From assembly GCA_964017065.1 (NCBI GenBank), contig OZ024792.1, positions 938,092 to 1,002,091 on the forward strand: a DNA stretch of 64,000 nucleotides, given 5' to 3'. Of the stretch, positions 231-63,888 are shown one piece after another; within the stretch, counting starts at the first letter, position 1; each line of letters begins with the position of its first letter. Under the pieces are notes generated by a model, which saw only the letters and a program-made list of their open reading frames with translations, made no database searches and had not been told where the DNA came from. The translations under genes and the position numbers were made by a program. The DNA comes from Haliclona indistincta. Its lineage: Eukaryota; Porifera; Demospongiae; Haplosclerida; Chalinidae.

Positions 231-735
231 TAAATTGAAGAATACAAATAACCGCCCAAAATCCAGTGGTTTTCGGCGCGCCTCCTGCGCTAAACGCTAT
301 GGCGACGGCATTTTCTATGGCTTCAGTGCAAATTTCACAACATTTTATGAGAAACAAAATGACCGCCAAGAAAATTTGGACATTTTATGGCTTCAGGGTG
401 CTCGGAAACACATTTTTGTGCATTCTCTATGATCTGGGCTACATTTTGCGCTCACCAAAACCACTGCTATTTGTGTGTACTTTTCAGTATCCAGCCCCAA
501 AGTACTAACTTTGAGCAAAATTTGACGAGGTCGTTGCACTTAATCGGCTTCACTTTCGAAGTGGGAGGAGCATATCGACTGACTTGAGTGTTGGCAATTG
601 CAGCTACTCACTGGCGTAAAAGGACGCAAATTTGAGACCAGTAGCACAAAAGACACACGAGATATTCACGAAAGAAGTGGTCAGCATTTACGAGGTTAAA
701 ATTTCAGTAAGATAATTTAGTAATTAAAGGGTTAA
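231..735. other. Non-genic DNA ending in a piggyBac-like terminus
   Basis: I recognise no gene here. The right edge is AAAGGG followed by TTAA (726-735), and receptor A homology begins immediately after. TTAA target sites beside a CCCTTT-type end are typical of piggyBac-like elements, and the element at 31167-31764 has the same end. I infer that such an element, or a deletion starting from it, removed the rest of receptor A. The left end is not visible. Confidence 0.45.
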
Positions 736-2278
736 TGACTATTATCACAATGACTCTTACCGCTAACAGACCAAATATTGCAATGACCACACCCATTACT
801 GCTATAATTACTGAACTCAATTGCTGCTCATCACTAGCCTGAGTAGGTGTGGTTATAGGTGTGTGAGCATCCACTGACAATGAAGTTTGAGTGATTGTAG
901 TAAAGATAGCAGCTGTTGTTGCTGTTTTTAAAATCTGTGATGTATGTGAAGTAGAGTGGTTTCAATTTGATTAGACAGATCAGCACATGTTATGTTTACT
1001 AATGGTTGGAGTCCAATACAAGTTGGTCCACTGTAGTTCTCAGGAGCCAGTAGTGTGAACACATTGCTCCTCATCAGAGGCTGGTCAGGATCAGCAGTTG
1101 TGTTGATCACCTGACACCAGTACTTGCCTAGTAGACTAGTACTGTAGGGCTGGTTGATAAACTTATTGTCATGATATCTCGATGACCGTTCAGTATTACT
1201 CAGTTGACTAACAGGATCACCTAGTCCCAGGCATTGTACTAATCCATCTGTGTTCTCTCTGAACCATTCAATAAAATAGTTGGTATTTACAGTAGAATGT
1301 CTCCTCACAAAACATTCTAATGATATTCGAACTATATTTTGGTGATCGTAGGGATTACAACCTTGTTGTGTGCTAGAGGGAGGCTGTGCCAGATACGCAA
1401 AGCTACAATTTTGACCTATAATGGTATTATAGGTGGGAAAAGTGCTCGTGGGAAAAGTCGTGGTGGAGGCACAGCTGCCTCGGTGGCTGTGCCTCGGAGG
1501 AGTACTCGGATAGCTGGAACTGCTGGCGGTAACCAAGCTGTTTCTACCCATGAGGAAGACGGAGCCTCCTCAAGGTCACTGCATAGACCTGCTCATAGTC
1601 GGTCTCCCAGCTGTCAGGGCTCACCCCAAAGTCAGTCTGCTGCTTCGCCTCTCCCCTGTTCATCTCCCAAGTCGCTGCTACCCGCACCACGTCAGTCTGA
1701 GTCTTCCTTGCCTCTGAAGCCTCCCATGCCAAGTCGCCCTCCTTTTCTTCTTCCTACTCCTTTAGCCAACTCTCTCGTTCCTATTCCAGTCTTCTCTCGC
1801 GTCTCTCTTCTCTTCTCCCTGATTCTGTCAGTGTTTCTATTTCTTTCTCTCCACTAACAGCTGTGTGCTGGCTCTATGATCTCTTTCCCTCGTCACTAGT
1901 GACTATACTCTATATATGCTTTTACTACTCTCTCCACTCATGACTGCTGCTCTCAATCTGATCTGTGCCACGAGTCTCCCCATACCATTGTCTTCATTAT
2001 CTCTACTGTTGTCCCTACAACACTGTCACTAACACTACATGTCTACTATACCAGGCAGTCTCACTTTGCGTGAGGCTGACCCTCAGCATTCTTCATAATT
2101 ATCATATCATTCTCTCACTTTGCTCACTACTATCCTGTAATGCTGTAACGCCAGAAATAATAATAATAATTATAAATGATAGTTTTAGTCAGAATAGCCA
2201 TAAATGGTCCTTACCTGAACAGTGAGTATTGAACATCATTATTGTGAAAACAATGCATATGACAAGTGGAGACACCAT
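732..2278 (-). pseudogene. Receptor locus A: Ig-like receptor, broken
   Basis: The signal-peptide exon (start 2278, donor after 2215) is intact and reads MVSPLVICIVFTIMMFNTHCS. The Ig-like exon begins at 1415 and carries the family signatures WFRENT, LLGKYWCQV and TADPDQPLMRSNVFTLLAP. Near 951-955 it has two extra bases relative to loci H and P, shifting the frame to a stop at 928 before the membrane segment. The stalk and most of the transmembrane region can still be read in another frame between 740 and 930. Homology stops at a TTAA at 732 and no cytoplasmic tail follows. A 737-bp insertion sits in intron 1. The ectodomain is the GLVQCLGLG subtype. A truncated secreted product is possible but less likely than a pseudogene. 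Confidence 0.8.
1432..2168 (+). mobile_element. Retroelement-like insertion with (AAT)n tail
   Basis: This 737-bp insertion splits intron 1 of locus A. The uninterrupted intron can be read at 44262-44300. It ends in an (AAT)n run and is flanked by ATTATA on both sides (1426-1431, 2169-2174), as expected of a short target duplication. Its 5' part has an open frame rich in Gly, Arg, Ser and Pro and no recognised domain. It could be a SINE or the end of a LINE. Confidence 0.6.
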
Positions 2279-2865
2279 GGCCAGTTTAAGCAGAACCAGT
2301 GACAGAAAGTTTAGCCGTATGACTGCATGCAGGGTACGAATTTTAACTAGTTAATTAACTTTGCGTTTTTGTTCTCTCTATAAAGTACGCCGATTTTTGA
2401 CCAGTCTAGTATTACGTGGGTGTACACGATTACATGAAAAGCGTTGTTAATTGTTTATTTTAGAGTGAGCAGATAATGCAAAAAAACTTCACTCGTAATA
2501 ATAATAAGCACACGAAGACTGCAATATTGATAACATGTCTTATTATTGAAAAGTACAAGCGCCGGCATTGCTGTACTGAATATCGGTGAGCATATTAATC
2601 AGTTATACTGCTATGCACTCTTAGACACAAAAGTACATGTCTCTAAAACGACTTGTTCATTGAAGAGATCTCATAATGTTTTCTGTCAAAAATGAAATCT
2701 TGCAATAGTTGTAACAAAATTAATTATAAACAGGAAAATTAAGTGTAGACATAGCTACTGTTCACTAGCTGTGACCACACATTGCTAGACAATGTTTAGT
2801 CACTGGTGGATTAATGAGGAGCAAGTAAGCTAGCTGTATTAATGTTCTTATTCTGCATTACTCAT
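2279..2865. promoter_or_regulatory. Conserved spacer between paired receptor loci (5' flank of A)
   Basis: This stretch is collinear and highly similar to 44390-44934 (between I and H) and to 50060-50476 plus 48990-49110 (between N/J and L). In each case it lies upstream of a type-3 or QCLG receptor and downstream of a YxTP receptor. It must hold the promoter of one and the 3' end of the other, though I see no specific motif. Conservation may simply reflect recent duplication. Confidence 0.5.
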
Positions 2866-7715: not shown

Positions 7716-8125
7716 TTGTAGCACTCTGCGTGGGCGTATCAAAGGCGCCGCCCGTTCTATATTTTCCATAATGAGAACGCCGTTCGCAATATGGAAAATA
7801 TAGCACGGCCAGGGAAAATATAGCACGGTCAGGGAAAATATAGCACGGCCAGAGGGTTAAAGATAGGGTGGGCGGAGACTGACCTTGGCTCGACCTCGAG
7901 AATAAGTCGCCCTGGAACAAAGATTCAGTGACAGCGGCAAGCTGTCGTGCTACAAACCAGTAAAAGCACCGTCTGCTCATGCAATACGGGAATTATTGCG
8001 CTCGGGGTGTCGGTCTCGACGCTGATACAGCACTCGGCTTCGCCTCGTGCTGTATCACCGTCTCGACCACACCCCTTGCGCAATAATTCCCGTATTGCAC
8101 TCGCAACGGTGCTTTAACTAGTTAC
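7716..8125. mobile_element. Insertion with three short tandem units and a hairpin
   Basis: This segment interrupts the tail exon of locus B, whose continuous form is at 45010-45060. It contains three repeats of AAAATATAGCACGG(C/T)CAG (7795-7852) and a hairpin at 7981-8100 with arms around TGCAATACGGGAATTATTGCG. No gene is recognised. Confidence 0.6.
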
Positions 8126-9649
8126 AACAGGTACCATTATTGCCCACATCAGCTGTACTGTAGTAGTGCTGTGTGTCTGGACTGCTATGTTTGTCTCTAA
8201 CTCTAACTGGTGTCTGGTAATCAAGTGGTGTCTTGATACTAACTGGTGTCTCATAATCTGCTTGATGTCTGGAAAATGGTGTTGCATAAACAGGTAGTTG
8301 TTGTGCTGCCTCAGGATCTAATGGCTGCTGCTGGCTACCATAACTATTCTCAGTTGTTATAGTGTTCCTTAAAGACCTGAATACAGATAAACACAACCAA
8401 ATACAATCAATCAACACTACAATGGTACTGTACTAGCATAAACTCACTCATTATTGCTATTGTCCATTGTAGTGATATCATTATTTCCTCCTAGTAAGGT
8501 GATAGTATACATTTGTACGCTTGTAATTTCAATAATACTAGTCTCTGTCTTTGTTGACAGAGGAATCTTGCTCTTTATGTTTCTTCCTTTTCAATAACAA
8601 GATCACAATAAGTGTTGAGCAGAGTAGTACTATCAGCAGTAGTAGAATACACACAGTCACTACTAGTACTATCATGAAGTGCGAGGTAGCTGGTGGTTGA
8701 TCTGTCACTAGTCCAGTAGAGGGAACTAGTGGAGAAGTAGCTTCTGATAGATTAGTGGTTGCTGTACACATAACCAGTATCTCTGATGTAACTACAAAAT
8801 TACACTGTAAAATTGAACACAACATGCAGTGCACTATTATTACCCATTAGACATCGGACATTTGTTATACCATTAGGAGCAGGCGGCATTGCAGTCTGTT
8901 CTGAGTGTTGATCAGCACATGTTAAATTAATACCAACTGTTTGGTATTTCAGTCCTGGCATTGAGTTGCAAGTTGGTCCACTGTAGTCTCCAGGAGCCAG
9001 TAGTGTGAACACATTGCTCCTCATCAGAGGGTGGTCAGGATCAGCAGTTGTGTTGATCACCTGACACCAGTACTTGCCTAGTAGACTAGGACTGTAGGGC
9101 TGGTTGAAGAGTGCTGCCTCATGGTATGTTGAGAAATGATCAATGGTTTTAATACCGGTCAGCTCTTTGACAGGATCACCTAGTCCCAGGTCCTCCACTG
9201 CTCCAGTTGTGTTCTCTCTGAACCATTTGATCAAAGAAAATTAAAAAGATTTCTATCGAAATCAAAAGGATGTAGGGTTGTGAAATCTACCACTGGTCAA
9301 CAATGTAAACTAACAAGGAACAAGCATGGAATGGTAACATGATTGACTTGCTAACAGACCATAGATCCCTACATCAGTGGCTGCTGTGGTTGGCTATAGC
9401 TAGTTCGGCTAGTTGCTGTTGACTGACACCTGACGTGCATTCAGCTTGTGACAGCTTTTGTACAGCCACTGATGTAGGGATCTATGGTCTGTTAGCAAGT
9501 CAATCGTGTTACCATTCCATGCTTGTTCCTTGTTAGTTTACAATGTTGACCAGTGGTAGATTTCACAACCCTACATCCTTTTGATTTCGATAGAAATCTT
9601 TTTAATTTTCTTGTTTGTGTCCTTTTTTCTTTTTCAGTGAAGTGCAGTT

Positions 9650-18229: not shown

Positions 18230-20222
18230 CTAGTCAGACAATGGCTGCTGTGTGCAGACAGCTTGTACAGTAGTGCTGTTAGGGAACATGTCATCATTGA
18301 CATAGTAATCATCATCTCCACTGCTGTCCTTCACGCAAGCACTTGTTAGACTAGTATAATCCTCTTCTTCTTGCTTAGGAAACAAGTCATCATTGACATA
18401 ATAATCACTTTCTGTATTCTTGTTTTTCTTTGTTTCATTCATCGATTGTTTCTCTGGTTGAAATTTGTCGTCAGTCCAACTCTCTTGTCTCTTGCTGGCT
18501 GCCTCTTCAATCTCACCAGGAAGCATTTCATAAATATGATCATGTCCATCGGTCTCTGGTGGCTTAGTATCCACACCAGCTGGTAGAGCAGTGCTGACGA
18601 CACCAGCTGATCTCAAGGGTTAAAATGGGCTCTGCATGGTCTTCAGGTGAGTCTTCAACACTCTTTTGAAATGACTTCATCTCAGTTTTAGCTGTGTAAG
18701 CCCCTTGGACAGTATTCACTTCACTACAGAACACAATACACTATATATAATACATGCACATAGTATTGGCAGTGCCTAGCTATTAGGTATTTGTCACCTG
18801 ATCAAGTGACAAGCAACCTGTGCTACTGAGAATGTTTGACTACATGATGATAGGTACACAGAGTTGGCTGACCCTTCAGCTTGGTTTACACTATGACACA
18901 GCGATACAGGCAGTACTTTCAAGTCTTCATGTAACCAAGAAGGATATTGTTGAGGAAAAAGGGATTAGACCTGACCACATGATATACTCACACTCTACCC
19001 TAGTATAGTATATCCCTTATTGTATCTATACAGTCAGATATTGCATACACTATATATCATAATTGTATCTATACAAGGCTCTGTTCTATACAGTATGTAG
19101 TTACACTTACTTTAATCCATAGGCTTCATTGTCTAATCCAACTTCTGCTAAAAACCAGACAAAATCATACATCAATACCAACATGATGCATACCTGACCC
19201 CCACTAGCTAACAAGCTGTGTTGCACACGTATTTAATTCCCTGGAGAAACCAGGACATACCTTTCTGACCAATCTGCTTCTTCTTCAAAAGTATCAAAAG
19301 AATCACAATAATCACCACAATCAGGATGATGATTGCGATGAGGAAGATGCCCCCAACGTAGGCTATCACATAGAGGAATGGTGATACCTGCTCCTCCTGG
19401 GAGCCTGGTTGGGGAGTGGTGGAGGGAGAACTTGCAGGTGGAGTTAGTGCAGAGGTAACTGCATTATCACTGGTTACTGATGTGGGAATATTAGCTACTG
19501 CAGTGATCGATGGTAGAATACTAGTTACTGATATCGTCTGTTCACTGGTCAGTGATGCAGTGTTTGCTGTAGGCTGTGCGGTTGTTGACAGTTCAATGAA
19601 GGAGGTCGACATTTGTATCATGGTGGTACTGCTGGGAACAAGGACTGGTACAGTAGTTGTGGTCTGTGCAACAGGCTGGTCTGGCAGATCAGCACATGTT
19701 ACGAATTGGGACTGAGCAGCGCCAAGGTGATCCACTGTAGTCTCCTGGAGCCAGTAGTGTGAACACATTGCTCCTCATCAGAGGCTGGTCAGGATCAGCA
19801 GTTGTGTTGATCACCTGACACCAGTATTTGCCTAGTAGACTAGGACTGTAGGGCTGGTTGAAGAATGCTGTGCTGTGATATCTTGAAAACCAATCCGTGT
19901 TGCTCAGGGATTGATCAGGATCACCTAGTCCCAGGTCCTCTACTGCTCCAGCTGTGTTCTCTCTGAACCATCTCACTTCAAACACATCAGTTACCATAGC
20001 TCTTCTTATAGTACAGTCTAAAGCGATCAATACGGATCGCATCCATTCAATGTAGTTGATGGAGGCTGCCTTAAGTACTCAAAACTGCACGTTGAGCCTG
20101 GAGAAGATGGAAAAAAAGTCGCACAGAGATGTCAATAAAATAATAGAACGCTGCTTTTCCGTCATACCTGCTACGCTGCTCAGCAGTGCACACATCGTGA
20201 GGATGACTCCTAGTAGTGCCAT
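18230..20222 (-). pseudogene. Receptor locus C: Ig-like receptor with a distinct YVND tail
   Basis: The signal exon (20168-20222) encodes MALLGVILTMCALLSSVA. The Ig exon (from 20097) carries WFRENT and LLGKYWCQV but has two frame breaks: a deletion near 20035 that leads to a stop, and a ~5-base deletion near 19724. Downstream in another frame is a long Ser/Thr-rich, mucin-like stalk, a strong membrane span (~19290-19380) and KKKQIGQKG. The tail differs from every other locus. It has IYEML, DYTSL and two DYYVND(D/L) repeats, where Y-V-N fits the Grb2 SH2 consensus. An upstream tail exon (~18625-18715) is visible, but the junction near 18617 is unresolved. The frameshifts argue for a pseudogene; sequencing error is the alternative. 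Confidence 0.7.
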
Positions 20223-23639: not shown

Positions 23640-24078
23640 TGATTTTGTTATCATCCCATGTTATCATAGCAGAGGTCATGTCACTAGGAGCTGGAGGGAC
23701 TCCAGGATGCTGGAGGGACTCCAGGATGCTGGAGAGAGCAGTACTCCTGCTCACCATAGCCTGCTGCTCGACCCATAGTGTTGGAAGATGTGTTGAGGGA
23801 GCTGTACTGATCATCTGCTGTCAGCTCCATGGGTAGGGTGTCACTAGCTGCCTGATTGTAACCCAACTTGCTATAAGCAGTATGTCCTCCAGTTGCAGTA
23901 TTCTCTAAGTGTGAGCACTGATTGTTACTGACCCAGTAGCATCATACATTGGGCCATCAAGCAGCATAGGTGTAGCAATGGGAGCCAGAGGAGGACCTGA
24001 TGTCATGGTGTCAGTCAGGCAGTTGTATTCACTGTTTATGATAATATTATTTCCGCCTTCCTTGGTTACACTCATTGA
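23640..24078 (-). pseudogene. Receptor fragment C': poly-YxxL tail exon
   Basis: Only the last exon remains: RSMSVTKEGG-like start, EYNCL, DQYSSL, EYCSL. It has a one-base deletion at the YDATG position (near 23932), an 18-base tandem duplication near 23697-23730, and a truncated C-terminus. It shares the YDATG deletion with C'', so one was copied from the other after the damage. The adjoining 23230-23520 and 24400-24700 are also duplicated. Confidence 0.8.
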
Positions 24079-25560: not shown

Positions 25561-25599
25561 GAGAAAATGTGAAATGCACATTCACAAATTGTTGATTTT

Positions 25600-43125: not shown

Positions 43126-44389
43126 TTATTTTGTATTGTCATATGTAGTATCAGTCTCTCTCTTGGTAGGGTCTACTATAGAGTACATCTTGCCCTCCAC
43201 CTCCACTGAAGGTGGTCCTCTCCTCCCAGTGGGTGTGGTGTACACACTGGTGTAGTCAGTGGTAACAGTGTCCAGTGGTTGGTAGAGTGCAGCTGGAGAG
43301 TCACTGCTGGTATACTGAACAGTAGCTGTGACAGGACGTGATGTAGCCTTGTCACTGGTGCTTTCATCTAAAACAAACATACATTCATGACAAACTATGT
43401 ACCTTGTTTTGATTTTTCCCTCATTTTTTGTCACATCAGTTTCAGTGTTATGTTCACTCTCTATATCACTATACAAACCAATACATTATCACAATACACT
43501 GAATGTATCTCAGCTACTCACTGCAGTGCTGTTTGATGGTCTCTAGTTTGAGAATCCTTCTCTGTAGTGGAAGTTTTAATACCTGCTGTTAAATTGAAAC
43601 AGCAACTTTCTTACTTTGATTCCATTTTATGACTATTATCACAATGACTCTTACCGCTAACAGACCAACTATTGCAATGACCACACCCAATAGGTGTGTG
43701 AGCATGCACTGACAATGAAGTTTGAGTGATTGCAGCGAACATAGCCGCTGTTGTTGTTGTTTTAAAGATCTGTGATGTATGTGAAGTAGTGGTTTCAGTT
43801 CGATTAGACAGATCAGCGCATGTTAGGTTGAGCATTGACTGCACAGTTCCAGTACACATTGCTTCACTGTAGTTCTTAGGAGCCAGTAGTGTGAACACAT
43901 TGCTCCTCATCAGAGGCTGGTCAGGATCAGCAGTTGTGTTGATCACCTGACACCAGTACTTGCCTAGTAGACTAGGACTGTAGGCCTGGTTGATAAACTT
44001 ATTGTCATGATATCTTGATGACCGATCTGATGACCCATCAGTATTACTCAGTTGACTAACAGGATCACCTAGTCCCAGGCATTGTACTAATCCATCTGTG
44101 TTCTCTCTGAACCATTCAATAGTCTAGTTGGTATTTACAGTAGAATGTCTCCTCACAACACATTCTACTGATATTCGAACTATATTTTGTTGATTGTAGG
44201 GACTACAACCTAGTTGTGTACTAGACCGAGGCTGTGCCAGATACGCAAAGCTACAATTTTGACCTATAATGGTATTATAAATGATAGTTTTAGTCAGAAT
44301 AGGCATAAATAGTCCTTACCTGAACAGTGAGTATTGAACATCATTATTGTGAAAACAATGCATAAAATTATGACAAGTGGAGACACCAT
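43126..44389 (-). pseudogene. Receptor locus H: type-3 tail, nonsense and deletion
   Basis: The signal exon (start 44389) is intact. The Ig exon has an in-frame TAG (~44127) just before TIEWF, where relatives encode Tyr-Ser. A deletion between ~43690 and 43705 removes stalk sequence and shifts the frame of the membrane span. The tail exons are still readable: RILKLETIKQHC (~43522-43560), DIESEHNTET and the final exon with QYTSS, LYQPL, DYTSVYTTP, MYSIV and TYDN. The final exon has lost an intron boundary seen in L and P, so it reads through. The ectodomain is the QCLGLG subtype. Confidence 0.82.
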
Positions 44390-44934
44390 GGCCAGTTTAA
44401 GCAGAACCAGTGACAGAATGTTTAGACGTATGACTGCATGCAGGGTACGAATTTTAACTAGTTAATTAACTTGCCGTTTTTGTTCTCTCTATAAAGTACG
44501 CCAATTTTTAGCCAGTCTAGTATACACGATTACATGAAAAGCGTTGTTAATATTGTTTATTTTAGAGTGTGCAGATAATGCAAAAAAACTTCACTCGTAA
44601 TAATAATAAGCACATGAAGAGTGCAATATTGATAACATGTCTTATGATTGAAAAGTACAAGCGGCATTGCTGTACTGTATACTGGTGAGCATATTAATTA
44701 GCTATACTGCTATGTACTCTTAGACAAACAAAAGTACATGTCTCTAAACCGACTTATTCATTGAAGAGATCTCATAATTTTTCAGTCAAAAAGTTGTAAC
44801 AACATTATAAACAGGAAAAATAAGTGTATACTTAGCTACTGTTCACTAGCTGTGACCATACATTGCTAGACAATGTTTAGTCACTTGTGGATTAATGAGG
44901 AGCAAGTAAGCTAGCTGTATCAATGCTCTTCTTC
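44390..44934. promoter_or_regulatory. Conserved spacer between receptors I and H
   Basis: Collinear with 2279-2865 and with the split copy at 48990-49110 / 50060-50476. It has no open frame. It holds the 5' flank of H and the 3' flank of I. Confidence 0.5.
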
Positions 44935-46291
44935 TTATGCATTACTCATTACAGCAGACTTGCTCATGTAGGTTGGATTAAATATTCCAGCAGTAATGGG
45001 TAGCTGAACTGGCTCACTGTATTCCTCACAACCAGTACCAGTATTACCCACATCAGCTGTACTGTAGTAGTGCTGGGTGTCTGCTGCTGTACTGTAGTAG
45101 TGCTGGGTGTCTGGACTGTTGTTTTCACTAATTGGTGTCTGGTAATCAAGTGGTGTCTTGATACTAACTGGTGTCTCATAATCTGATTGATGTCTAGAAA
45201 ATGGTGTTGCATAAACAGGTAGACACAAATGAACACAAATAAATACAATCAATCAGCACTACAATGGTACTAACATAAACTCACTCATTGTTACTATTGT
45301 CCATTATAGTGATATCATGATTCACTAATAAGGTGATAGTATACATTTGTACTCTCGTACTTTCAGTTGTACTAACCTCTGTCTTTGTTGATAGAGGAAT
45401 CTTGCTTTCTCTTTTTCAATAACAAGATCACAATAAGTGTTGAGCAGAGTAGTACTATCAGCAGTAGTAGAATACACACAGTCACTGCTAGTACTATCAT
45501 GAAGTGTGAGGTAGCTGGTGGTGGATCTGTCACTAGTCCAGTAGAGGGAACTAGTGGAGAAGTTGATTCTGATAGATTAGTGATTGCTGAACACATCCCT
45601 GATGTAAATACAAAATTACACTGTAAATTCGAACACAACCTGCAGTGCACTAAAATTACCCATTAGACTTTGGATATTTGTTGTACCATTAGTAGCAGGC
45701 GGCATTGTAGTCTGTTTTGAGTGTCGATCAGCACATGTTATATTACCAACTACTTGCATTTTCAGTCCTGGTATTGAACTACAAGTTGGTTCACTGTAAT
45801 TCCAAGGAGCCAGTAGTGTGAACACATTACTTCGCTGGTCAGGATCAGCAGTTGTTGTGTTGATCATCTGACACCAGTACTTACCTAGCAGAGTAGGACT
45901 GTAGGGCTGACTGCTGAGTCCTTTCTTGTGATATTGTGAAAAATGATCAGTACCCAGCTTATTGACAGGATCACCTAGTCCCAGGTCCTCTACTGCTCCA
46001 GTTGTGTTCTCTCTGAACCATTTAATCATAAACTGGTCTGTCACACCAGTCAGTCTCCTTACAGTACAACCCAGCAATATATGAAGTGTTTCATTTTGAT
46101 CATAAGGATTACAGCAGCGTAGTGTAGTAGAGGGAGGCTGATTTACAAACTGAAGCCTGCACTGGCCTGATGGGTACAGCATAATACTCATGTTTTCACT
46201 ATTCAAATCAGTGTTCACCTGAACAGCTCACAGCGGTCATACACAGCACTGCTACCAACAAACTGAACACAGAGTATTGCTGAGACTCCAT
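44935..46291 (-). CDS. Receptor I: Ig-like receptor with YxTP tail, probably intact
   Basis: Proposed exons are 46219-46291, 45660-46166, 45377-45598, 45285-45324 and 44935-45193, totalling 1101 nt and 366 residues, with all phases matching. The signal peptide reads MESQQYSVFSLLVAVLCM. The Ig exon has WFRENT and LLGKYWCQM, and lacks the PLM of TADPDQPLM. The membrane span (FMIVLAVTVCILLLLIVLL) is followed by KKRKQ. Tail motifs are DYETP, DYQTP, two HYYSTA repeats, EEYSEP and PTYMSK. About 100 bp including the ancestral acceptor of the last exon is deleted relative to B and N/J. A TTTTCTAG at 45194-45201 is a usable in-frame replacement, dropping PVYATP. Introns of 52 and 61 nt are very short. 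If that acceptor is unused the gene is broken. Confidence 0.65.
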
Positions 46292-46391: not shown

Positions 46392-46990
46392 CTAATTTAT
46401 CTTGAATAGACTGCTAACCAAAAAGGTTTCTGCTACAGTGTATGTATGTATAGTGTAAGCTAGTAAACTCTCTATCAGCACATGTGCTAATCTGTGTGAC
46501 AGATCAGCACATGTTATGTCTGTTACTGCTTGTACTGTTGTGCATGTTGGTTCACTGTAGTCCTCAGGAGACAGTAGTGTGAACACATTGCTCCTCATCA
46601 GAGGCTGGTCAGGATCAGCAGTTGTGTTGATCACCTGACACCAGTAACTTGCTTAATAGACTAGGACATAGATATTATTGAGAAGTGCTGTTTCATGATA
46701 ACTTGATGTTCGATCAGTGGCTGTGCTGAAAAGAAAGGGAGCCTATTCCCTGACCCTGCATTGCTCCAGTTGTATTCTCTCTGAACCATCTCATTAAATA
46801 GCTGGTACTCTCATTAACTGAGCACTCTAGTAAAATTATTATACTAATCCTATTATTTTGATCATAAGGATTGCAATCTCGTACTGTAGTAGATGGAGGC
46901 TGTGCTAAATATTGAAAGCTGCACTGTTGACCTGTTAGTAGTAGTTTATAAACAGTAACTGAGGACTAGCTCACCTAACAACAATCCACT
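46392..46990 (-). pseudogene. Receptor fragment K: decayed Ig-like exon
   Basis: INTTADPDQPLMRSNVFTLL remains readable (46560-46634). The rest of the Ig exon to ~46955 is recognisable only as nucleotide similarity, with several indels. A possible signal-exon remnant ends near 46990. No membrane or tail exon is found. Confidence 0.75.
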
Positions 46991-47466: not shown

Positions 47467-48960
47467 TCACATGTAGTACGGCTCCTTGATCACAGCATCA
47501 TATGTAGTATCAGTCTCTCTCTTGATAGGGTCCACTATAGAGTACATCTTGCCCTCCACCTCCACTGAAGGTGGTCCTTTCCTCCCAGTGGGTGTGGTGT
47601 ACACACTGGTGTAATCAGTGGTAACAGTGTCCAGTGATTGATAGTGTGCAGCTGGAGATTCACTGCTGGTATACTGAACAGCATCATTGGTGGCTGTGAC
47701 AGGACGTTGATTGTTTTTACTAATGTGTTCTATTATAGAAAAACAAGCGTAAAACAAATGTTAGGTATTTTCTCTGAGACAACAGAATTCGTATATCATA
47801 CCTTGTTTGCTAAACTTCTCTTTTGTTTTTTCAGTGTTTTGTTCACTCTCTACATCACTATACAAACCAATACATTATCACAATGCACTGAATGTATCTC
47901 AGCTACTCACTGCAGTGCTGTTTGATAGTCTCTAAAAGAGCCTTTCTCTGAAGTACAGTATGGTTTCTTACGTAAAAATGTTTTCTAACGCACCTCTATT
48001 GCAATTGTTGACCTTACTTTGTCTCCATTTCATGAACAGTATTACAATGGTTGTGACTGCTACCACACCAATAATCACAATAATCATACTCATCACTGCT
48101 ATCACTGCTATGAATGAGCTAGTCTCAAGTGAACGAGTAGTACTAGTCACAGTGTGCATGGGTGTGTGTGCCAATAATTGTGAAGGTGGTGAGGTTGTGC
48201 CGCTTTTTAATGCTGTGCTGATAACAACTGTTTCTGTGTGTGGCACAAAATTTTTTAATCATTGCGTACTCAATTCCTAACCTGATGCAGCCAATATTGC
48301 ATAACACAGACTGAGTTGTAGTTAAACTTAGTGTTTTAGTGAACGAAGTCAGACTAGAATGATCATGATCGGGTAAATCAGCACATGATATGTTGTTATC
48401 TGCTTGTACTGTTGTGCACATTGGTTCATTATACCTCAAAGGAGCCAGTAGTGTGAACACATTGCTCCTCATCAGAGGCTGGTCAGGATCAGCAGTTGTG
48501 TTGATCACCTGACACCAGTACTTGCCTAGTAGACTAGGACTGTAGGGCTGGTTGATAAACTTTTTGTCATGATATCTCGATGACCGATCAGTAATACTCT
48601 GTTGACTAACAGGATCACCTAGTCCCAGGCATTGTACTAATCCATCTGTGTTCTCTCTGAACCATTCAATAGAATAGTTGGTATTTACAGTAGAATGTCT
48701 CCTCACAGTACATCCCAATGATATTGCAACTATAATATCATTTCTGTGTTGGCTGTAGGGATTACAACTTTGTAGTGTAGTAGAGAGAGGCTGTACCAGG
48801 TAAGCAAAGCTACAAGTTTGACCTGTAATAGTATTATAAATAATACTTTTAGTCAGAATAGCCATAAATAGTCTTTACCTGAACAGTGAGTATTGAACAT
48901 CATTACTGTCAAGAAGTTGAAAACACCATGGCCATGGGCAGTTTAAGCAGAACTAGTGAC
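47467..48960 (-). pseudogene. Receptor locus L: type-3 tail, damaged signal exon
   Basis: The Ig exon (right end ~48820) is open with WFRENT and LLGKYWCQV. A 64-nt intron with donor CAG/GTTAGG (~48275) and acceptor TTATCAG (~48212) would restore the frame into the membrane span (IVIIGVVAVTTIVILF). Tail exons lie near 47910-47945, 47826-47860 and 47467-47730, with QYTSS, YQSL, DYTSVYTTP, MYSIV, TYDAV and EPYYM at the end. The signal exon has lost ~16 bases near 48928 relative to M. No upstream ATG then stays in frame, only an ATG pair near its end. I call it a probable pseudogene. An unannotated alternative first exon would rescue it. Confidence 0.6.
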
Positions 48961-50050: not shown

Positions 50051-50928
50051 TCATTTAATAAATTATTGTTTATTGTAAAGTGTGTAGATAATGCAAAAAA
50101 ATTCACTTTTAATTAATTGATAAACACATGAAGAGTGCAATATTGATAGCATGTCTTATTACTGAAAAGTACAAGCGGCATTGCTGTACTGCATACTGTG
50201 AGCATATTAATTAGCTATACTGCTATGCACCCTTAGACTAACTAAAGTACATGTCTCTAAACCGACTTATTCATTGAAGAGATCTTATAATATTTTCTGT
50301 CAATAATGAAATCTTGCAATAGTTGTAACAACATTAAAAACTGGAAAATTAAGAGCATACATAGCTACTGTTCACTAGCTGTATACATTGCTAGGAAATT
50401 ACATGTGTAGTCACTGCATGGTGGATTCAACACTTAATGAGGAGCAAGTAACCTAGCTGTATCAATGCTCTTCTTCTTATGCATTACTCATTACAGCAGA
50501 CTTGTTCATGTAGGTTGGATTAAATATTCCAGCAGTATTGGGTGACTGAGCTGGCTCACTGTATTCTTCACAACCAGTACCAGTATTGCCCACATCAGCT
50601 GTACTATAATAGTGCTGGGTGTCTGCTGCTGTGTTTGTCTCTAACACTAACTGGTGTCTGGTAATCAAGTGGTGTCTTGATACTAACTGGTGTCTCATAA
50701 TCTGCTTGATGTCTGGAAAATGGTGTTGCATAAACAGGTAGTTGTTGTGCTGCCTCAGGATCTAATGGCTGCCGCTGGCTACCATAACTATTCTCAGTTG
50801 TTATAGTGTTCCTTGGAGGCCTGTATACAGATAAACACAACCAAATACAAGTACTATCATGAAGTGTGAGGTAGCTTCTGATAGATTAGTGGTTGCTGTA
50901 CACATAACCAGTATCTCTGATGTAACTA

Positions 50929-52185
50929 GGCACCGAAGGTGCTTATGCCTCGGTGGAATGTTATGCATACATGCCTGTCTGACTAAATACGCTGAACTGA
51001 AATACACAAGCAGTAATGAAAGTCTGCTGTTGCTAGTTGAACACTATGTTAGTGGCTGACAACTTATAAAAACATACACAGGGACAACCGACAGTAAACC
51101 AAAGGTGCAGATGCGTCGGTGGAATGCAACAATTTGACATACACAGCAACAAACTGCAGCTGTTGTACCTTTCTGTACAGCAATCACAATGCAGTATATA
51201 GTATAACAAGAAATTAAAAAGATTTCTATCGAAATCAAAAGGATGTAGTGATGAAGAAATCTACCACTGGTTCACAATGTAAACCAACAAGCAACAAGCA
51301 TAGAATGGTAACACGATTGACTTGCTAACAGACCATAGATCCCTACATCAGTGGCGGCTGTGGCCAGACTATAGCTAGTTAAGCTATTTACTGTTGACTG
51401 ACACTTTGAATAGAATTCAGCTTGTGACAAACTATTGATCTTATGTACAGCCACTGATGTAGGGATCTATGGTCTGTTAGTAAGTCAATCGTGTTACCAT
51501 TCTATGCTTGTTGCTTGTTGGTTTACATTGTGAACCAGTGGTAGATTTCTTCATCACTACATCCTTTTGATTTCGATAGAAATCTTTTTAATTTCTTGTT
51601 TGTGTCCTTTTTTCTTTTTAGTGAAGTGCAGTTCATTATCATGCATGTACGGAGAAGTCTTTGTTTCCACCATTAGTTCAGTATTCCTGTTGTTGATGGC
51701 TTTTCTTAAACTTGTAGCTAAAATTGTTAAGCTGTACGTATCAGGTCTGCCTAGTCGTCTACGCATGCATGCAGTGCATACGAGCCCCGCCCACACTTGT
51801 TTGTAGACCTATACGGCGGTTATAATTATCTGGCAAGTGCAGAATGGCGATCCTACACGAGCTTACCGTTCTTCGAAGACTCCAGACAAATGCCGAGTGT
51901 GTGTTCTCCGTGATAGTGATCCACACGGCGCAGCGATACTTTAGCTGCTTGGTCACGTGCGCTACCCATTGCTTGGTCACGTGCGTATTGCGCAATCACA
52001 ATAATGGCGTCTAACACTAAGCTGACAATGGATCACGATCGAGAAATCGCGGAACTTAGATCGCCGTTACGCTAAAAACAAAGCTCAAAAGGCACATGCC
52101 AGGAGAATTTCACGACTGTTCGTGGATGTTTTGGTCTCGGCACTGCTCGCGTAAAGGCGCTAGGCGAGTTGAAGAAAGAAAGAAA

Positions 52186-52266
<81 letters not shown>

Positions 52267-53122
52267 AATAAATAAAGAAAGAAAGAAGAAAACGAAGATG
52301 ACGAAACTCGATTTTTATCGTTTCCAGGTTCGTCACTTTAGTAACAATTTCGAGCAATCTCCTTGCTACTGTAAGATGGGGCAACGCCAGAGAGCAGATC
52401 TAAGTGTCTAAAGACGTATAAAATTCAACACCAGGCGAAATATCAGCGTTTGAACGCTAATACATTGTATGTAGCCGCCATCTTGTTTTCTCGTTCATCC
52501 CTACATAGGGAGGCACTACCGTGCCTCCCTAATAGTTATGCAATCAGAAGCCAATCAGTGCTGACCACTAATTCAACTGGGCGTGTCTATATTGTTCAGG
52601 GCACAGCACGTACTACGAGCGAGATAGCTTGCTTACACAATTTCTTTAGACTTACGATGTAACCTATCAGCTTCTAGGCAGTCAACTGTGGATAGTTTTG
52701 TCTACGGAGAACTCCAGATCGCCAGCAACGGCCATCGATCGCGAGGTAAGCAAAGCTATACGCCATAACTCTAGAACGCAGCTTCATATACAAGTCTGCC
52801 GTGCTGTTCTGAAGTAAATGCGAACTCACTAGCTGTAAGGCAGCCAGCAATAGACAATTTTGTCGTTACATCAGCAACTAGATCGCCACCCGGCGATCGC
52901 GAGGTAAGCAATCACGCTATAACTCACGAACAGAGCCTTATAACCAAAATCCTTACAATTCATTTTCAAGCAAATATCGACTTTAGGTTGTGTTGCAGGT
53001 TTCAGCGCTTAGTTTTCAGCGAGCGACGAGAAATCCTGCCGACAGACAGACAGACGGACAGACAGACAGATACATACACAAACGAACTACTGTATGCCTC
53101 GTGGCTCCGCCCACCGAGGCAT
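50929..53122. mobile_element. TATGCCTCGG-family element carrying an FB1
   Basis: The ends are GGCACCGAAGGTGC at the left and GGCTCCGCCCACCGAGGCAT at the right, with TAACTA at both junctions (50923-50928, 53122-53127). It hosts an FB1 at 51195-52535. GACAGACAGACGG repeats are near 53043. No transposase is recognised. Confidence 0.65.
51195..52535 (+). mobile_element. FB1 copy with GAAA microsatellite
   Basis: Palindrome (51205-51595), CACGTGCG boxes (51954, 51977), GGATCACGATCGAGAAATC block, GAAA tract (52170-52290) and terminal hairpin (52498-52533) are all present. It is nearly the mirror of 41862-43084. Confidence 0.8.
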
Positions 53123-55627
53123 AACTACAAAATTACACTGTAAATTTGAACGCAACATGCAGTGCACTAAAATTACCCATTTTACTTTGGATATTTGTTG
53201 TACCATTAGGAGCAGGCGGCATTGTAGTCTGTTGATCGGCACATGTTGTATTACCAAATATTTGGTATTTCAGTCCTTTTAATGTGCTACAAGTAGGTCC
53301 AGTGTAGTTCTCATGAGCCAGTAGTGTGAACTCATTGCTCCTCATCAGAGGCTGGTCAGGATCAGCAGTTGTGTTGATCACCTGACACCAGTACTTGCCT
53401 AGTAGACTAGGACTGTAGGGCTGGTTGAAGAGTGCTGCCTCATGGTATGTTGAGAAACGATCAATGGTTTTAATACTGGGCAGCTCTTTGACAGGATCAC
53501 CTAGTCCCAGGTCCTCCACTGCTCCAGTTGTGTTCTCTCTGAACCATTTGATCATAAACTGGTCAGACACATCAGACTGACTCCTAACAACACATTGCAG
53601 TACTATTTGAATTTTTTGATCTTCATCATAAGGATCACAGCATTGTAGTGTAGTAGAGGGAGGCTGTGAGGTATATTGTAAGCTGCAATGTTGACCTGTT
53701 AAAGCATGCAGTAACATTATTCACTGTACAATCTAACATGTTCACCTGAACAGATCACTCTGATCACACACAGCACTACAAAGGATAGCCTGAACACAGC
53801 TTGTTGGTGATGGTCCATTTTTGGACTAATAACTGGCATGCACAGAGTTAGAGAACAGTACTTTAATGTGCCAATGTTTATACTAGCTAGCCGGCGGCCT
53901 CGTACTCAGTTTCACTGAATATCCAAGATACTGTGTACAAACATGCATGTGATTGTATAGATTGTGCTGTACAAACAGTTTGCTATAGTATGGCAGATTT
54001 TTGGACTATTTTGGAGGAATAGGGACAGACTGGATAAAAGCACCAAAGTTTTTCCTGCATGTCCTTGGGTACTCAGCTTTGATTTTTTAATAGGACAGTG
54101 CATTCTGACAACTTTTATGGTAATTTTATATTTTAACATTCATGAATAATTAATGAGTACGTACATAAACCATTTCTAAACTGGCTAAAACTTACTCTAC
54201 TATGTACTTCTACTGGTATATTAAATAATGAATCATCCCCAGCAATGATTTTGTTGGTAGAACATTTTAGTTTGCATTATACTGACAAGTATATTTACTA
54301 AGTTCATTGCATGACCAGTTAGCTTAATTTCTTGCAAGTACATGTACATCGATCTGCACCACAGCCTTTCTCACTTTTACATCCACACTTAACTTGTTCA
54401 AAACATGCTTTGTTGGTTATCATTTGTGATGTCATCCAAATAGGCATCTATTTCTGCTGCAAGTCCATCCCCAAGAATCTGGAGTAGGCCTCCGCTGTTC
54501 ACTTGTAGCCCAGATGCTAACCTGATAAGCAGCTCACCTTGCATGTTGCAATAGAGCATTGACTGTTGGTGGAATGTATTCCATAGTTTTGCTTTCTTGT
54601 CATTCTTGCTTCATCGATGAGCTCAAAACTGCTACTCTTGCTGCAAAGGCAGCCTTGCAATTGCTTCCCATGATGTTTGCACAGCATTTCTTACAGTCTT
54701 TCTAGCACTATCTGACATATTCCAAGCACTATCTTACAGTATTTCTAGCACTACCTGACAGTCTTTCTTGCACTCTTTCTTGCACTATCTTACAGCCTTT
54801 CTTGCACTATGCCACTATCTTACTTGCACTATCTTACAGCCTTTCTTGCACTATCTTACAGCCTTTCTTGCACTATCCGGCTTACAGCCTTAGCTTTCTT
54901 GCACTATCTTACAGCCTTTCATAATGAGTAGCAGTTTTGAGCAGTATCCGGGCTACAAGTGAACAGCGGAGGCCTACTCCAGAATGTTGGGGACTTGCAT
55001 GGACTGACAGCAGCAGAAATAGATGCCTATTTGGATGACACAACCAATAGCCAACAAAGCATGTCTTGAACTAGTTAAGTATGGATGTAAAAGTGAGAAA
55101 GGCTGTGGTGCAGATCGATGTACTTGCAAGAAATTAAGCTAACTGGTCATGCACTGAACTTAGTAAATATATTTGTCAGTATAATGACGCAAACTAAAAT
55201 GTTCCTTTCATTTCGTAACAAAATCATTGCTGGGGATGATTCATTATGTAATATACCAGTAGAAGTACATAGTAGAGTAAGTTTTAGCCAGTTTAGAAAT
55301 GGTTTATGTACAAAATGTATGTACTCAACAATTATTCATGAACGTTAAAATATAAAATTACCATAAAGTTGTCAGAATGCACTATTAGGGAGGCACGGTA
55401 GTGTCTCCCTATGTAGGGTTGAACGGGAAAACAAGATGGCGGCTACATACAATGTATTAGCGTTCAAACGCTGATATTTCGCCTGGTGATGAATTGTATA
55501 CGTCAAAAGACTCCTAAATCTGCTCTCTAGCGTTGCCCCATCTTACAGTAGCAAGGAGATCGCTCGAAATTGTTACTAAAGTAACGAACCTGGAAACGGA
55601 AAAAATCGAGTTACGTCATCTTCGTTT

Positions 55628-55630
55628 TCT

Positions 55631-55722
<92 letters not shown>

Positions 55723-55815
55723 TCCTTCCTTCCTTCCTTCCTTCCTTCCTTCCTTCCTTCCTTCCTTCCTTCCTTCCTTCCTTCCTTCCTTCCTTCCTTC
55801 CGTTCGTTCGTTCGT

Positions 55816-55850
<35 letters not shown>
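55628..55850 (+). repeat. (TTTC)n(TTCC)n microsatellite
   Basis: About 95 bp of TTTC, ~80 bp of TTCC, a few TTCG units, then TTTC again. Homopyrimidine; the reading frames are artefacts. Confidence 0.95.
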
Positions 55851-55852
<2 letters not shown>

Positions 55853-58826: not shown

Positions 58827-60366
58827 TCATTTGTTCAATACACTGTACTGTTGCTGGTCTGCAGAGGTCATGTCACTAGGAGCTGGAGGGACTCCAGGAT
58901 GCTGGAGAGAGCTGTACTCCTGCTCACCATAGCCTGCTGCTAGCTTGTCACGACCCATAGTGTTGGACGATGTGTTGAGGGAGCTGTACTGATCATCTGC
59001 TGTCAGCTCCATGGGTAGAGTGTTAGTAGCTGTCTGATAGTAACCCAGCTTGCTATAGGCAGCATGTCCTCCAGTTGCAGTATTTTCCAGGTGCGAATAC
59101 TGACTGTCACTGACTCCAGTAGCATCATACAGTGGGCCATCAAATAGCATAGGTGCAGCAGAACCAGGACCAGGAGGACCTGATGTTGTGGCATCAGTCA
59201 GGCAGCTGTATTCACTGTTCATGATATTTCCACCTTCTTTGGTCAGACTCATTGATCTATAGAAACTAGTCAACTTGCTCTTTGTTTATTTTTAATGTGA
59301 CATTTTACCTTTTTAAGTCATCTGGTTGGTCATATATGACAGGTGGTGGTTGTGAAGTAGTGTTGTTTGACCTGCAATGTTGTTGATATGGATGTCAGTT
59401 TTTGCATCAGTCAGGATAAACTCACTGTAATTCTATGTTGATGTTGTCTTCTGCACAATTATTGTAGCTCACTGCTTTGTTGCTATAACCACCTACATTG
59501 ATAATGTACATACAAATATCAGCTAGTAAGTATTCTTGCCTGTGTGTGTCCATTGCTTGTCTTGTTTCTTTCTTCTATTCATCATTATTATTAGTAGTAT
59601 CACAATGAGCATTGAGCAGATGATCAGTACTAGTACTACACCAGCTGATGCTCCTGCTATAATGGGTGTGATAGACTGTGGTATCATAGGTGATCCAGTA
59701 GGTGATGGGTGGGAGGTGATATTTACAAGACTACTTGATAAGTTCTGAGTGGTGCAGACTATAGGTGTGGTCTGGTTCTCTGGTTCATCAGCACACCTTA
59801 CGTGATCCCTACTTTGTACTGCATTGCTACACATTGCTACACTGTAGTTCCAAGGAGCCAGTAGTGTGAACACATTGCTCCTCTCCAGAGGCTGGTCAGG
59901 ATCAGCAGTTCTGTTGATCACCTGACACCAGTACTTGCCTAGTAGACTAGGACTGTATGGCTGATTGATAAACTTATTGTCATGATATCTTGATAACCGA
60001 TCAGTACTACTCAGTTGACTAACAGGATCACCTAGTCCCAGGCATTGTACTAATCCATCTGTGTTCTCTCTGAACCATTCAATAGAATAGTTGGTATTTA
60101 CAGTAGAATGTCTCTTCACAACACAGTCCAATGATATTCGAACTATAGTATTATCATTGTGTTGATCATAGGGATTACAACCTTGTAGTGTACTTGAGGG
60201 AGGCTGTGCCAGATACGCAAAGCTACAAATTTGACCTATAAATAAAATTAATAATAGTCTTAGTCAGAATAAGCATAAAATAAGGGTCTTTACCTGAACA
60301 GTGAGTATTGAACATCATTACTGTCAAGAAGTTGAAAACAATGACAAGTAGAGACATCATGGCCAT
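58827..60366 (-). CDS. Receptor M: Ig-like receptor with poly-YxxL tail, intact
   Basis: The exons are 60294-60366, 59540-60235, 59426-59492, 59309-59371 and 58827-59256; they sum to 1329 nt, 442 residues, all phases consistent. The start is the first in-frame ATG, giving MAMMSLLVIVFNFLTVMMF as signal peptide. The ectodomain is the QCLGLG subtype with WFRENT, LLGKYWCQV and INRTADPDQ in place of INTTADPDQ. The membrane span contains AGASAGVVLVLIICSMLIVILL, then NRRKKQDK. Tail motifs are YDQP, YSCL, YSHL, YSKL, YSSL twice and YSVL. The GC donor after exon 2 is conserved with E and F. Closest relative is F. Confidence 0.83.
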
Positions 60367-61800: not shown

Positions 61801-62412
61801 ATACAGCTATAAAACAGTGTAGAACTCGTGTTCATAAGGCAGCTGTTAGTGAAGAATCACCAGAGTTAGTAAAGAAGGTAGATTTTCAATCACCTCTACT
61901 TAGCTTAGGTACACTTTTGGTTTAAAGCAGCTACAGTCTTGAAATTAGCTTTATTCTCTAGAGTATAGATATAGCTACAATCTGATGTAAACAAATCTAC
62001 TGTCCTCAATTCATAACAATCCTAAATTTAATTCACAAAATGAACAATAAATTGATGTATTGTTGTCATAATGTAAGGCAAATCAGCTGAAGTACGTCAG
62101 GATAATGTGTGCTGTCTTTGTAGAAGATCCGGAGGATACATGGTACGCTTTGAACGCTGGAGTGAAGAGGAGAAACAGTATGTGTTAGTACACATGAGCA
62201 CAATACCTCCAGCCAATAGCGTAACGTGCAAAAGATAAAATAGAGGCTAAAAGATGCTGCCATGATCTTACCAAAATGGACAAAACAAAAATAGACACAC
62301 ATACACAATCATGCTTTTATAGAATCTACTTGTGCAAATGTATGACTTCAGAATCACAATAATTATGTTATTGTTATTGTTGTATTGTTAGTGCATGGAC
62401 TAGAAATCTTTG
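61801..62412. other. Spacer with no recognised gene
   Basis: The minus-strand frame at 62066-62308 shows no recognised domain. It is the 3' flank of receptor P. Confidence 0.35.
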
Positions 62413-63888
62413 TCACATGTAGTACGGCTCTTTTATTGCAGTGTCATATGTAGTATCAGTCTCTCTCTTGATAGGGTCCACTATAGAGTACATCTTGCCC
62501 TCCACCTCCACTGAAGGTGGTCCTCTCCTCCCAGTGGGTGTGGTGTACACACTAATGTAGTCTGTGGTAACAGTGTCCAGTGGTTGGTAGAGTGCAGCTG
62601 GAGAGTCACTGCTGGTATACTGAACAGCATCATAGTTGGCTGTGACAGGATGTTGATTGTTTTTAGCAATGTGTTCTATTATAGAAAAACAAGCATAAAA
62701 CAAATGTTAGGTATTTCTCTGAGACAACAGAATCCGTATATCATACCTTGTTTGCTAAACTTCTCTTTTGTTGTTTCAGTGTTATGTTCACTCTCTATAT
62801 CACTATACAAACCAATATATTATCACAATGCACTGAATGTATCTCAGCTACTCACTGCAGTGCTGTTTGATGGTCTCTAGTTTGAGAATCCTTCTCTGTA
62901 GTTTAATTGCAGTATCTGCTATTAAATTGAATCAGCAACTTTCTTACTTTGTCTCCATTTTATGACTATTATCACAATGACTCCTACTGCTAACAGACCA
63001 AATATTGCAATGACCACACCCATTACTGCTATTACTGAACTCAATTGCTGCTCATCACTAGCCTGAGTGGGTGTGGTTATAGGTGTGTGAGCATGCACTG
63101 ACAATGAAGTTTGTGTGATTGCAGTGAACATAGCAGCTGTTGTTGCTGTTTTTAAAATCTGTGATAGATGTGAAGTTGTGGTTTCAATTCGATTAGACAG
63201 ATCAGCACACGTTATGTTATCCCTACTTTGTACTGCATCGTTACACATTACCACACTGTAGTTCCCAGGAGCCAGTAGTGTGAACACACTGCTCCTCATC
63301 AGAGGCTGGTCAGGATCAGCAGTTGTGTTGATCACCTGACACCAGTACTTGCCTAGTAGACTAGGACTGTAGGGCTGGTTGATAAAATTTTTGTCATGAT
63401 ATCTTGATGCCCGATCTGATGACCCATCAGCATTACTCAGTTGACTAACAGGATCACCTAGTCCCAGGCATTGTACTAATCCATCCATGCATGTTCTCTC
63501 TGAACCATTCAATAGAATAGTTGGTATTTACAGTAGAACGTCTCCTCACAACACAGTCAAATGATATTCGAACTAAACTTAGTTGATTGTAGGGATTACA
63601 ACCTTGTAGTGTACCAGAGGGAGGCTGTGCCAGATACGCAAAGCTACAATTTTCCCCTATGATAGTATTATAAATAATTGTATTAGTCAGAATAGCCATA
63701 AAATGGTCCTTACCTGAACAGTGAGTATTGAACATCATCACTGTCAAGAAGTTGAAAACAATGATAAGTGGAGACCTCATGGCCAGTTTAAGCAGAACTA
63801 GTGACAGAAAGTTTATACGTATGACTGCATGAAATAGACTGTTTGTCCGGATCCCCACCCACCATACATTTACTGACAATGTCAACAA
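62413..63888 (-). pseudogene. Receptor locus P: type-3 tail, single frameshift
   Basis: All exons are present: signal (start 63888 or 63780; donor ~63715), Ig (right end ~63655), stalk and membrane span (MGVVIAIFGLLAVGVIVIIVIKW, ~62955-63030), short exons near 62865-62905 and 62780-62815, and the final tail exon (62413-62675) with QYTSS, LYQPL, DYISVYTTP, MYSIV, TYDTA and EPYYM. The only visible lesion is a 4-base insertion at ~63485-63490 between WFREN and DGLVQCLG, which shifts the frame. If it is an assembly or allele error, P would be the intact type-3 gene. Confidence 0.7.

Follow-up and report, generated by a model that had tools for sequence, protein, structure and literature searches.

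Clustered V-type immunoglobulin-like receptor genes with differing tyrosine-motif tails in the sponge Haliclona indistincta: a putative paired-receptor array

Described receptor clusters and the sponge array

The vertebrate KIR/LILR, CD300, FCRL and PD-1 receptors come from gene clusters in which similar ectodomains sit on inhibitory or activating tails. An arrangement resembling these paired on/off immune receptors, and also the tissue-compatibility genes of some invertebrates, occurs in a 64,000-nucleotide stretch of the sponge Haliclona indistincta (the window; contig OZ024792.1, here C10, positions 938092-1002091, of a 144 Mb assembly in 46 contigs, among them those labelled C2, C8 and C9). 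The products of the array are probably type I membrane-bound receptors in which a single V-type immunoglobulin (Ig) domain and a stalk rich in Ser, Thr and Pro are followed by one span and a tail that repeats tyrosine motifs; they would act as paired receptors, most likely in immunity or recognition. The nearest working likeness appears to be a paired-receptor cluster such as the vertebrate natural killer (NK)-type receptors, Botryllus FcoR or Hydractinia Alr.

The likeness to the vertebrate receptors lies in similar ectodomains, differing tails and clustering, and the structures that match the ectodomain model in fold include a PD-1 entry. However, KIR/LILR use C2-type domains and the array V-type domains, and the fold matches share only 9-16% sequence identity, a likeness short of demonstrated orthology. 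The candidate recognition genes of sponges themselves, the aggregation factors (cited in PMC12065747), contain Calx-beta, von Willebrand A (VWA) and Wreath domains. Pfam scans of array frames gave no Calx-beta or VWA match, and aggregation-factor domains are absent from the families shown in these scans (25 of 46 families listed for the third). Members of the sea urchin SpTransformer (185/333) family are mosaics that are not Ig-based and lack signalling tails, and the Ig-based, tail-bearing sponge array differs from them in both respects. What the two share is the form of a large tandem family, an immune one in the sea urchin (PMC8634487).

In Botryllus, the FcoR genes of the fuhc locus are clustered type I Ig-superfamily receptors whose tails, varying among relatives, carry immunoreceptor tyrosine-based inhibition motifs (ITIMs), hemITAMs (ITAM, immunoreceptor tyrosine-based activation motif) or core YxxI/L/V motifs (passages of PMC12065747). 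By this description the sponge array is similar in its clustered type I Ig receptors with variable tyrosine-motif tails. However, the FcoR ectodomain combines V, sushi and two C2 domains (passages of PMC12065747), whereas the sponge genes have one V domain and a stalk or, in one frame of the 0.7 Mb cluster, a pair of V domains along with mucin-like repeats. The complete gene models all have the single V domain and stalk, and a Pfam scan of three window ectodomain frames found no sushi domain. Hydractinia Alr, of the cnidarian allorecognition complex, a family of 41 Ig-like genes (passages of PMC11999971) whose candidate genes carry ITAM/ITIM motifs (passages of PMC12065747), is again alike by description, as an Ig-like family with ITAM/ITIM-type motifs. 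The block homogenisation and free tail swapping described below are not mentioned in the Alr passages of these two sources, and the passages of PMC11876637 hold no Alr detail.

According to passages of the review PMC12065747, no conservation is seen among the candidate allorecognition proteins put forward in sponges, in cnidarians and in ascidians, and ITIM/ITAM signalling connects systems from cnidarians to mammals. Sponges enter the passages of PMC12465263 through Ig domain counts only, and those of PMC8129030 hold nothing on sponges or ITIMs. Among the top matches in the open-access literature, the only part searched, on sponge Ig or ITIM/ITAM receptors, no title announces such a family.

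Gene models, predicted fold and tails

Three complete spliced genes could be modelled. They have common intron phases (1,1,2,2) and one layout: a signal-peptide exon comes first, then an exon for ectodomain, stalk and membrane span, which two short exons separate from the tail exon. Coordinates count from the first letter of the window unless a contig is named.

33502..35203, minus strand, complete gene of 485 amino acids; exons 35203-35149, 35085-34243, 34183-34117, 34046-33984, 33931-33502; D-type ectodomain, stalk, one membrane span, tail type A (6 YxxL)
36713..38210, minus strand, complete gene of 435 amino acids; exons 38210-38144, 38097-37420, 37372-37312, 37266-37204, 37151-36713; B-type ectodomain, tail type A, intron 2 GC-AG in the model
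58827..60366, minus strand, complete gene of 442 amino acids; exons 60366-60294, 60235-59540, 59492-59426, 59371-59309, 59256-58827; B-type ectodomain (structure modelled), tail type A, intron 2 GC-AG in the model

A first-pass annotation had described repeated minus-strand loci with WFRENT and LLGKYWCQV signatures, a single membrane span and tails rich in YxxL or YxTP. Motif mapping bears this out for the signatures, since WFREN and GKYWC recur across the window on the minus strand only. Downstream of the signature ectodomains lie a hydrophobic span and then tyrosine-rich tail exons, and the three complete models give a type I architecture with plausible introns. The description of the tails holds in that tyrosine motifs are present, and there are several distinct tail types.

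Intron 2 is modelled as GC-AG (CAG/GCAAG) at the same place in all three genes (34243, 37420 and 59540, minus strand). Two of them have no GT within ~55 nt upstream of an in-frame stop; in the 33502..35203 gene a GT donor is an alternative. A reading in which two genes with B-type ectodomain and type A tail are left tailless by the in-frame stop was dropped in favour of the GC-AG model. Seven places of the CAG/GCAAG type came from a search for that very motif and are not an independent count.

The annotation had also called the ectodomains Ig-like and had named a prediction lacking the Ig fold as grounds for refutation; structure prediction instead returns a V-type beta sandwich, with strands at 35-42, 50-57 and 100-108. 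An alignment of 13 sequences has W54 and C104 in every row and C38 in nearly all. The features of an Ig V-set domain, cysteines in the B and F strands and a tryptophan in the C strand, are present.

A frame of 1006 amino acids in another cluster (locus L054 5965-8985, in C10:697000-706999, the 0.7 Mb cluster) has two V-type ectodomains with long PVPSTT mucin-like repeats between them. It is a tandem-domain relative of the receptor family.

The tails differ in their motifs. Type A carries six Yxx[LIV] motifs, with two strict ITIM matches; type B Yxx[LV], YTTP and YSIV; type C four YxxP; type D two YVN together with YEML and YTSL; type E, from C2, YSVV, YSSL and YSKL; and type F (contig positions 917446-918030) five Yxx[LIV] and an ITAM, YSTL-x7-YNTL. 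Residue-shuffle tests are strongest for types A, C and F. The Yxx[LIV] count of type D is ordinary (p 0.19), as is the single YxxP of a type B window copy (p 0.51). Both type A tails examined contain the strict ITIM, [SIVL]xYxx[ILV], twice (shuffle p 0.02-0.03), and the C2 type B tail contains it once (p 0.08); it is absent from all tested tails of types C, D, E and F and from those of type B in the window. Among the tested window tails only type A has a YxxL pair, at spacing 10 (ITAM spacing is 6-8). The ITIM/ITAM tails of the first-pass annotation are thus found in modified form: ITIM-, YxxP- and YxN-types lie in the window, and the ITAM type in the same cluster but outside it.

For one tail type the motifs are conserved. 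A database search with tail A found 23 proteins, and in the 14 aligned, with identity to the first row down to 57%, 8 of the 10 query tyrosines are invariant. One aligned record, P0135, is at most 81% identical to any tail of the source genome, and therefore comes from another assembly or haplotype.

What might read these tails? YxxL motifs recruit SHP-type phosphatases, ITAMs a tandem-SH2 kinase, and YxxP or YxN motifs Crk- or Grb2-type adaptors. Two neighbouring open frames at C9:7649661-7653885 (minus strand), of 572 and 581 amino acids, have the order SH2-SH2-tyrosine phosphatase, and one open frame of 228 amino acids has the order SH3-SH2-SH3. By domain order we take the former to be SHP-like and the latter Grb2-like. 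By their sequence these SH2-bearing frames are possible tail readers, and the C9 pair possible readers of ITIMs. In the proposed mechanism a ligand would engage the V domain and a Src-type kinase would phosphorylate the tail. YxxL tails would then inhibit through SHP-type phosphatases, the ITAM tail would activate through a tandem-SH2 kinase, and YxxP and YxN tails would act through the adaptors. Where similar ectodomains sit on different tails, they would work as paired receptors, with their balance governing the response, most likely immune defence or the recognition of self versus other individuals.

What if the family serves cell adhesion? It could be a diversified adhesion or homotypic recognition family, working within one body or in development, whose tails signal adhesion state via Crk- and Grb2-type adaptors. 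The YxxP and YxN tails are like adaptor-docking scaffolds, one gene has a Grb2-like domain order, and the uniform FG face described below would suit homotypic contact. However, many broken copies, tail switching and ITIM/ITAM-type tails are in general more typical of immune-type families, and the adhesion alternative seems rather doubtful.

The homogenised block and tail switching

Codons 85-121 of the ectodomain (QPYSPSLLGKYWCQVINTTADPDQPLMRSNVFTLLAP) form a homogenised block of ~108 nt. Among 37 C10 copies its mean pairwise nucleotide identity is 0.93-0.99 per 24-nt step, with sharp edges, and 0.95 over the whole block with gaps counted. The rest of the exon lies mostly at 0.50-0.75, and a shorter patch, core1 (WFRENT), at 0.74-0.89. 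The C2 cluster has the same block and a stronger core1. All 40 scored block matches lie in C10 clusters (96 candidates; counts are lower bounds). The window positions were computed from contig positions.

34721..34830, minus strand, block, example copy
1048-1157, 8998-9107, 19752-19861, 30822-30931, 37724-37833, 43884-43993 and 46573-46682, minus strand, other block copies
48446-48555, 53319-53428, 59859-59968 and 63273-63382, minus strand, further block copies
45805-45914, minus strand, block copy only 83% identical

The uniformity extends to silent positions. Differences at fourfold sites amount to 0.038 in the block versus 0.221 elsewhere in the 1.0 Mb C10 cluster, and to 0.033 versus 0.116 within C2. 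Majority sequences of the 0.3 and 1.0 Mb C10 clusters, 0.65 Mb apart, differ at 0/18 fourfold sites in the block and at 7/17 others (p 0.003). The corresponding differences are 4/16 and 5/17 for the 1.0 Mb C10 cluster versus C2, and 0/16 and 4/22 for C2 versus C8 (p 0.12). The cluster-majority comparison indicates that homogenisation in C10 is limited to the block and stops short of C2.

Perhaps the block is identical through constraint at the nucleotide level (e.g., an RNA or regulatory element) together with protein constraint, and not through gene conversion. The block protein is nearly invariant in database relatives too, and core1 is kept even between C2 and C10 (0/7 fourfold differences). 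The oldest pseudogene copies, which are starting to lose block identity, also fit. However, a functional element would hardly be expected to be cluster-specific. From C2 to C10 the fourfold sites of the block have diverged about as far as those elsewhere, and its majority is identical in the two distant C10 clusters despite their diverged flanks, which makes constraint an unlikely explanation. Pseudogenes as proof of conversion were set aside as ambiguous: recent ones carry no information on it, and in the oldest the block, too, is decaying. Copies classed as broken number 10 of 37 in C10 and 6 of 31 in C2.

Conversion between copies would keep uniform what the structure model places in the block, namely the F strand, the FG loop (the position of antibody complementarity-determining region 3, CDR3) and the G strand. 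Such uniformity suggests a shared docking face, for a partner chain, a dimer or a common ligand. In C10, 36 of 666 pairs match well on one side of the block but differ in the stalk. Several discordant C10 pairs break directly 3' of the block (e.g., 93% and 50%), and these breaks fit exchange at the block.

Homologous exchange among copies would also move ectodomains between tails. In the window, B-type ectodomains occur with tail A or B, D with A or D, and C with C. In the loci read, every open ectodomain was paired with the first tail that follows it (six of the 60, including five 0.7 Mb genes, received no tail), and changes were counted on a tree of codons 1-84, in which many forks are weak. 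In C2 the tail type changes at least 9 times among 26 genes (shuffled mean 8.2), so ectodomain and tail are not linked there. In C10 there are at least 7 changes among 26 genes (shuffled mean 11.5, with 0/300 shuffles as low), which indicates linkage with repeated switching. These alternative tails and their switching on the ectodomain tree bear out the clustered-receptor logic proposed in the first-pass annotation. In three C2 genes and one C8 gene the tail is a hybrid in which a B-type exon comes after an E-type tyrosine exon, a hint of tail exon shuffling or alternative tails.

C2:1919608-1920094, hybrid tail
C2:1936883-1937372, hybrid tail
C2:1961385-1961858, hybrid tail
C8:6502504-6502970, hybrid tail

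A tendency of the closest C2 ectodomains to carry opposite tails (12 changes, equalled or exceeded in 49 of 2000 shuffles) was rejected, as its labelling of the hybrid tails was post hoc; the other two labellings merely give no linkage.

Replacements gather outside the block, e.g., at codons 25, 35, 66, 139 and 141, and diversity would be located in the BC, C'-D, A'-B and C-terminal loops. A pN/pS (ratio of replacement to silent differences per site) of 1.01 from low-pS pairs was discarded as biased by pair choice.

It is tempting to go further. The array may be a germline combinatorial system in which dozens of copies keep converting one another over the ~108-nt cassette that codes for the F strand, the CDR3-equivalent loop and the G strand. 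Every receptor would then present one invariant docking face, and the stretch of identical DNA would let variable ectodomain halves and activating or inhibitory tails be exchanged across it. This extension is possible but tentative.

Extent of the array and its possible role

The array extends past the window, from ~919 to 1062 kb of the contig. A one-ectodomain query against the own genome matched 101 places, a count that takes in fragments, and these fall into six clusters: C10 at 0.92-1.06 (the window array), 0.27-0.31, 0.69-0.71 and 4.89-4.90 Mb, C2 at 1.90-1.98 Mb and C8 at 6.50 Mb. In each cluster all ectodomain matches lie on a single strand. Of the 101 open reading frame (ORF) pieces matched by hidden Markov model, 60 are near-complete open ectodomains in the loci read, which exclude much of the C10 0.27-0.31 and 4.89 Mb clusters and part of the 1.03-1.06 Mb stretch. 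Within the window, motif and exon mapping of the minus strand finds 13 ectodomain copies, 7 with a near-complete open exon. The first-pass annotation had counted about 16 loci, a number that tail remnants (23717-26158 and 38509-38701) may have swelled. The broken ectodomains, the ectodomain/tail reassortment and the homogenised block go beyond it. The copies and remnants besides the complete genes are as follows.

62416..63786, minus strand, frameshifted B-type copy; signal 63712-63786, ectodomain 63201-63657, span 62928-63146, tail B 62416-62664
50480..53818, minus strand, open C-type copy; signal 53744-53818, ectodomain 53229-53696, shortened membrane exon and tail type C (50480-50905) ~2.3 kb downstream
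47470..48924, minus strand, open B-type copy; partial signal 48877-48924, ectodomain 48371-48823, span 48013-48171, tail B 47470-47718
46503..46932, minus strand, degenerate ectodomain without complete frame
44938..46291, minus strand, open C-type copy; signal 46217-46291, ectodomain 45721-46161, membrane exon 45378-45599, tail type C 44938-45222 with its first ~27 residues missing
43138..44395, minus strand, B-type copy with TAG stop; ectodomain 43812-44264, membrane exon broken, tail B 43138-43350
38509..38701, minus strand, type C tail remnant without adjoining ectodomain
30747..31924, minus strand, broken D-type copy (stop and frameshift); signal exon 31865-31924
23717..26482, minus strand, membrane exon 26336-26482 and type A tail remnants 25631-26158 and 23717-23932, without adjoining ectodomain
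18233..20222, minus strand, frameshifted D-type copy; signal 20166-20222, ectodomain 19728-20095, span 19262-19450, tail type D 18233-18656 with YEML, YTSL and two YVN
8124..9234, minus strand, N-terminally truncated C-type copy; ectodomain 8905-9234, membrane exon 8544-8771, tail C 8124-8378
761..2284, minus strand, open B-type copy; signal 2213-2284, ectodomain 979-1416, frameshifted membrane exon 761-889, no tail assigned

ORFs with at least three tyrosine motifs are largely strand-specific. The window has 8 on the minus strand versus 1 on the plus strand; seven of the eight are tail exons, the eighth (51-209) looks spurious, and the plus-strand one is a retrotransposon frame. The coding strand has 34 versus 0 in C2 (at least 7 of the 34 are ectodomain frames or short repeats), the C10 flanks have 16 versus 3, and C8 has 2 on the coding strand versus 3 on the opposite strand, where an unrelated Ig gene sits. 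The first-pass annotation had raised the prospect of a transposon-borne repeat. The intron-bearing, phased five-exon models and the one-orientation clusters argue for host genes rather than a dispersed repeat.

Other elements share the window. A Ty3/Gypsy-type long terminal repeat retrotransposon (9631-14122) has 232-nt direct terminal repeats, 96% identical, with gag-protease-reverse transcriptase-RNase H at 9842-12553 and integrase at 12554-13897, one stop codon between them; the truncated receptor copy (8905-9234) is nearby. A frame of 523 amino acids (39760-41331, minus strand) has a YADD motif like that of a non-LTR reverse transcriptase, although Pfam did not confirm it. GA-rich short-unit arrays (4-12 nt steps; 16937-17292, 27841-28292, 55552-55897 and 61351 onwards) yield spurious long ORFs. 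Elsewhere in the genome silicatein, sought as a sponge marker, was not supported: of 80 matched cathepsin-family places two were read, and both have Cys, not Ser, at the active site.

Several results count against a paired-receptor system. No Ig model scores above its curated cut-off in two Pfam scans, and a profile comparison with true Ig domains of the same genome is weak (E 0.07-0.09, probability <1%), with the register right. PF00047 does match 31 of 107 family members at E<=0.1 (best 3.3e-4); direct PDB sequence searches gave nothing meaningful. Since the curated-model and profile scores are weak, the Ig assignment leans on predicted structure. At least two of the three complete models need the non-canonical GC-AG intron. 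Window tail types B, C and D have no strict ITIM or ITAM, and the sole canonical ITAM found, that of tail F, sits ~20 kb outside the window. In C2, 70 of 465 pairs are discordant (60 listed), with the switch mostly further downstream, in the stalk. Outside the two cores pairwise pN/pS is 0.84 (0.72-0.99) for pairs chosen by total distance, and not >1, which hints at positive selection on individual sites but does not demonstrate it for the variable parts as a whole. Lastly, 6 of the 13 window ectodomains are broken, i.e., truncated, frameshifted, stop-interrupted or degenerate.

These broken ectodomains, the pN/pS value and the retrotransposon and microsatellite load would also fit an array made up largely of dead duplicates, with only a few genes still active, and patterned by neutral duplication and unequal crossing-over. 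That is quite unlikely, given the 60 near-complete open ectodomains in the loci read, the tail tyrosines invariant among divergent copies, and six cysteine columns and the core tryptophan that have zero replacements in 25 chosen pairs while their neighbours change.

If the paired-receptor reading is true, a sponge, from among the earliest-branching animal lineages, would have a paired ITIM/ITAM-type Ig receptor system. V-domain receptors with both kinds of tail would extend to sponges the signalling logic known from cnidarians to mammals, and the array supplies candidate genes for self/non-self recognition. The combinatorial extension, if true, would invert the design of antibodies and T-cell receptors, in which CDR3 is the most variable part. 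A frozen CDR3-equivalent block with tail swapping may offer testable ideas on how innate repertoires diversify under one docking geometry.

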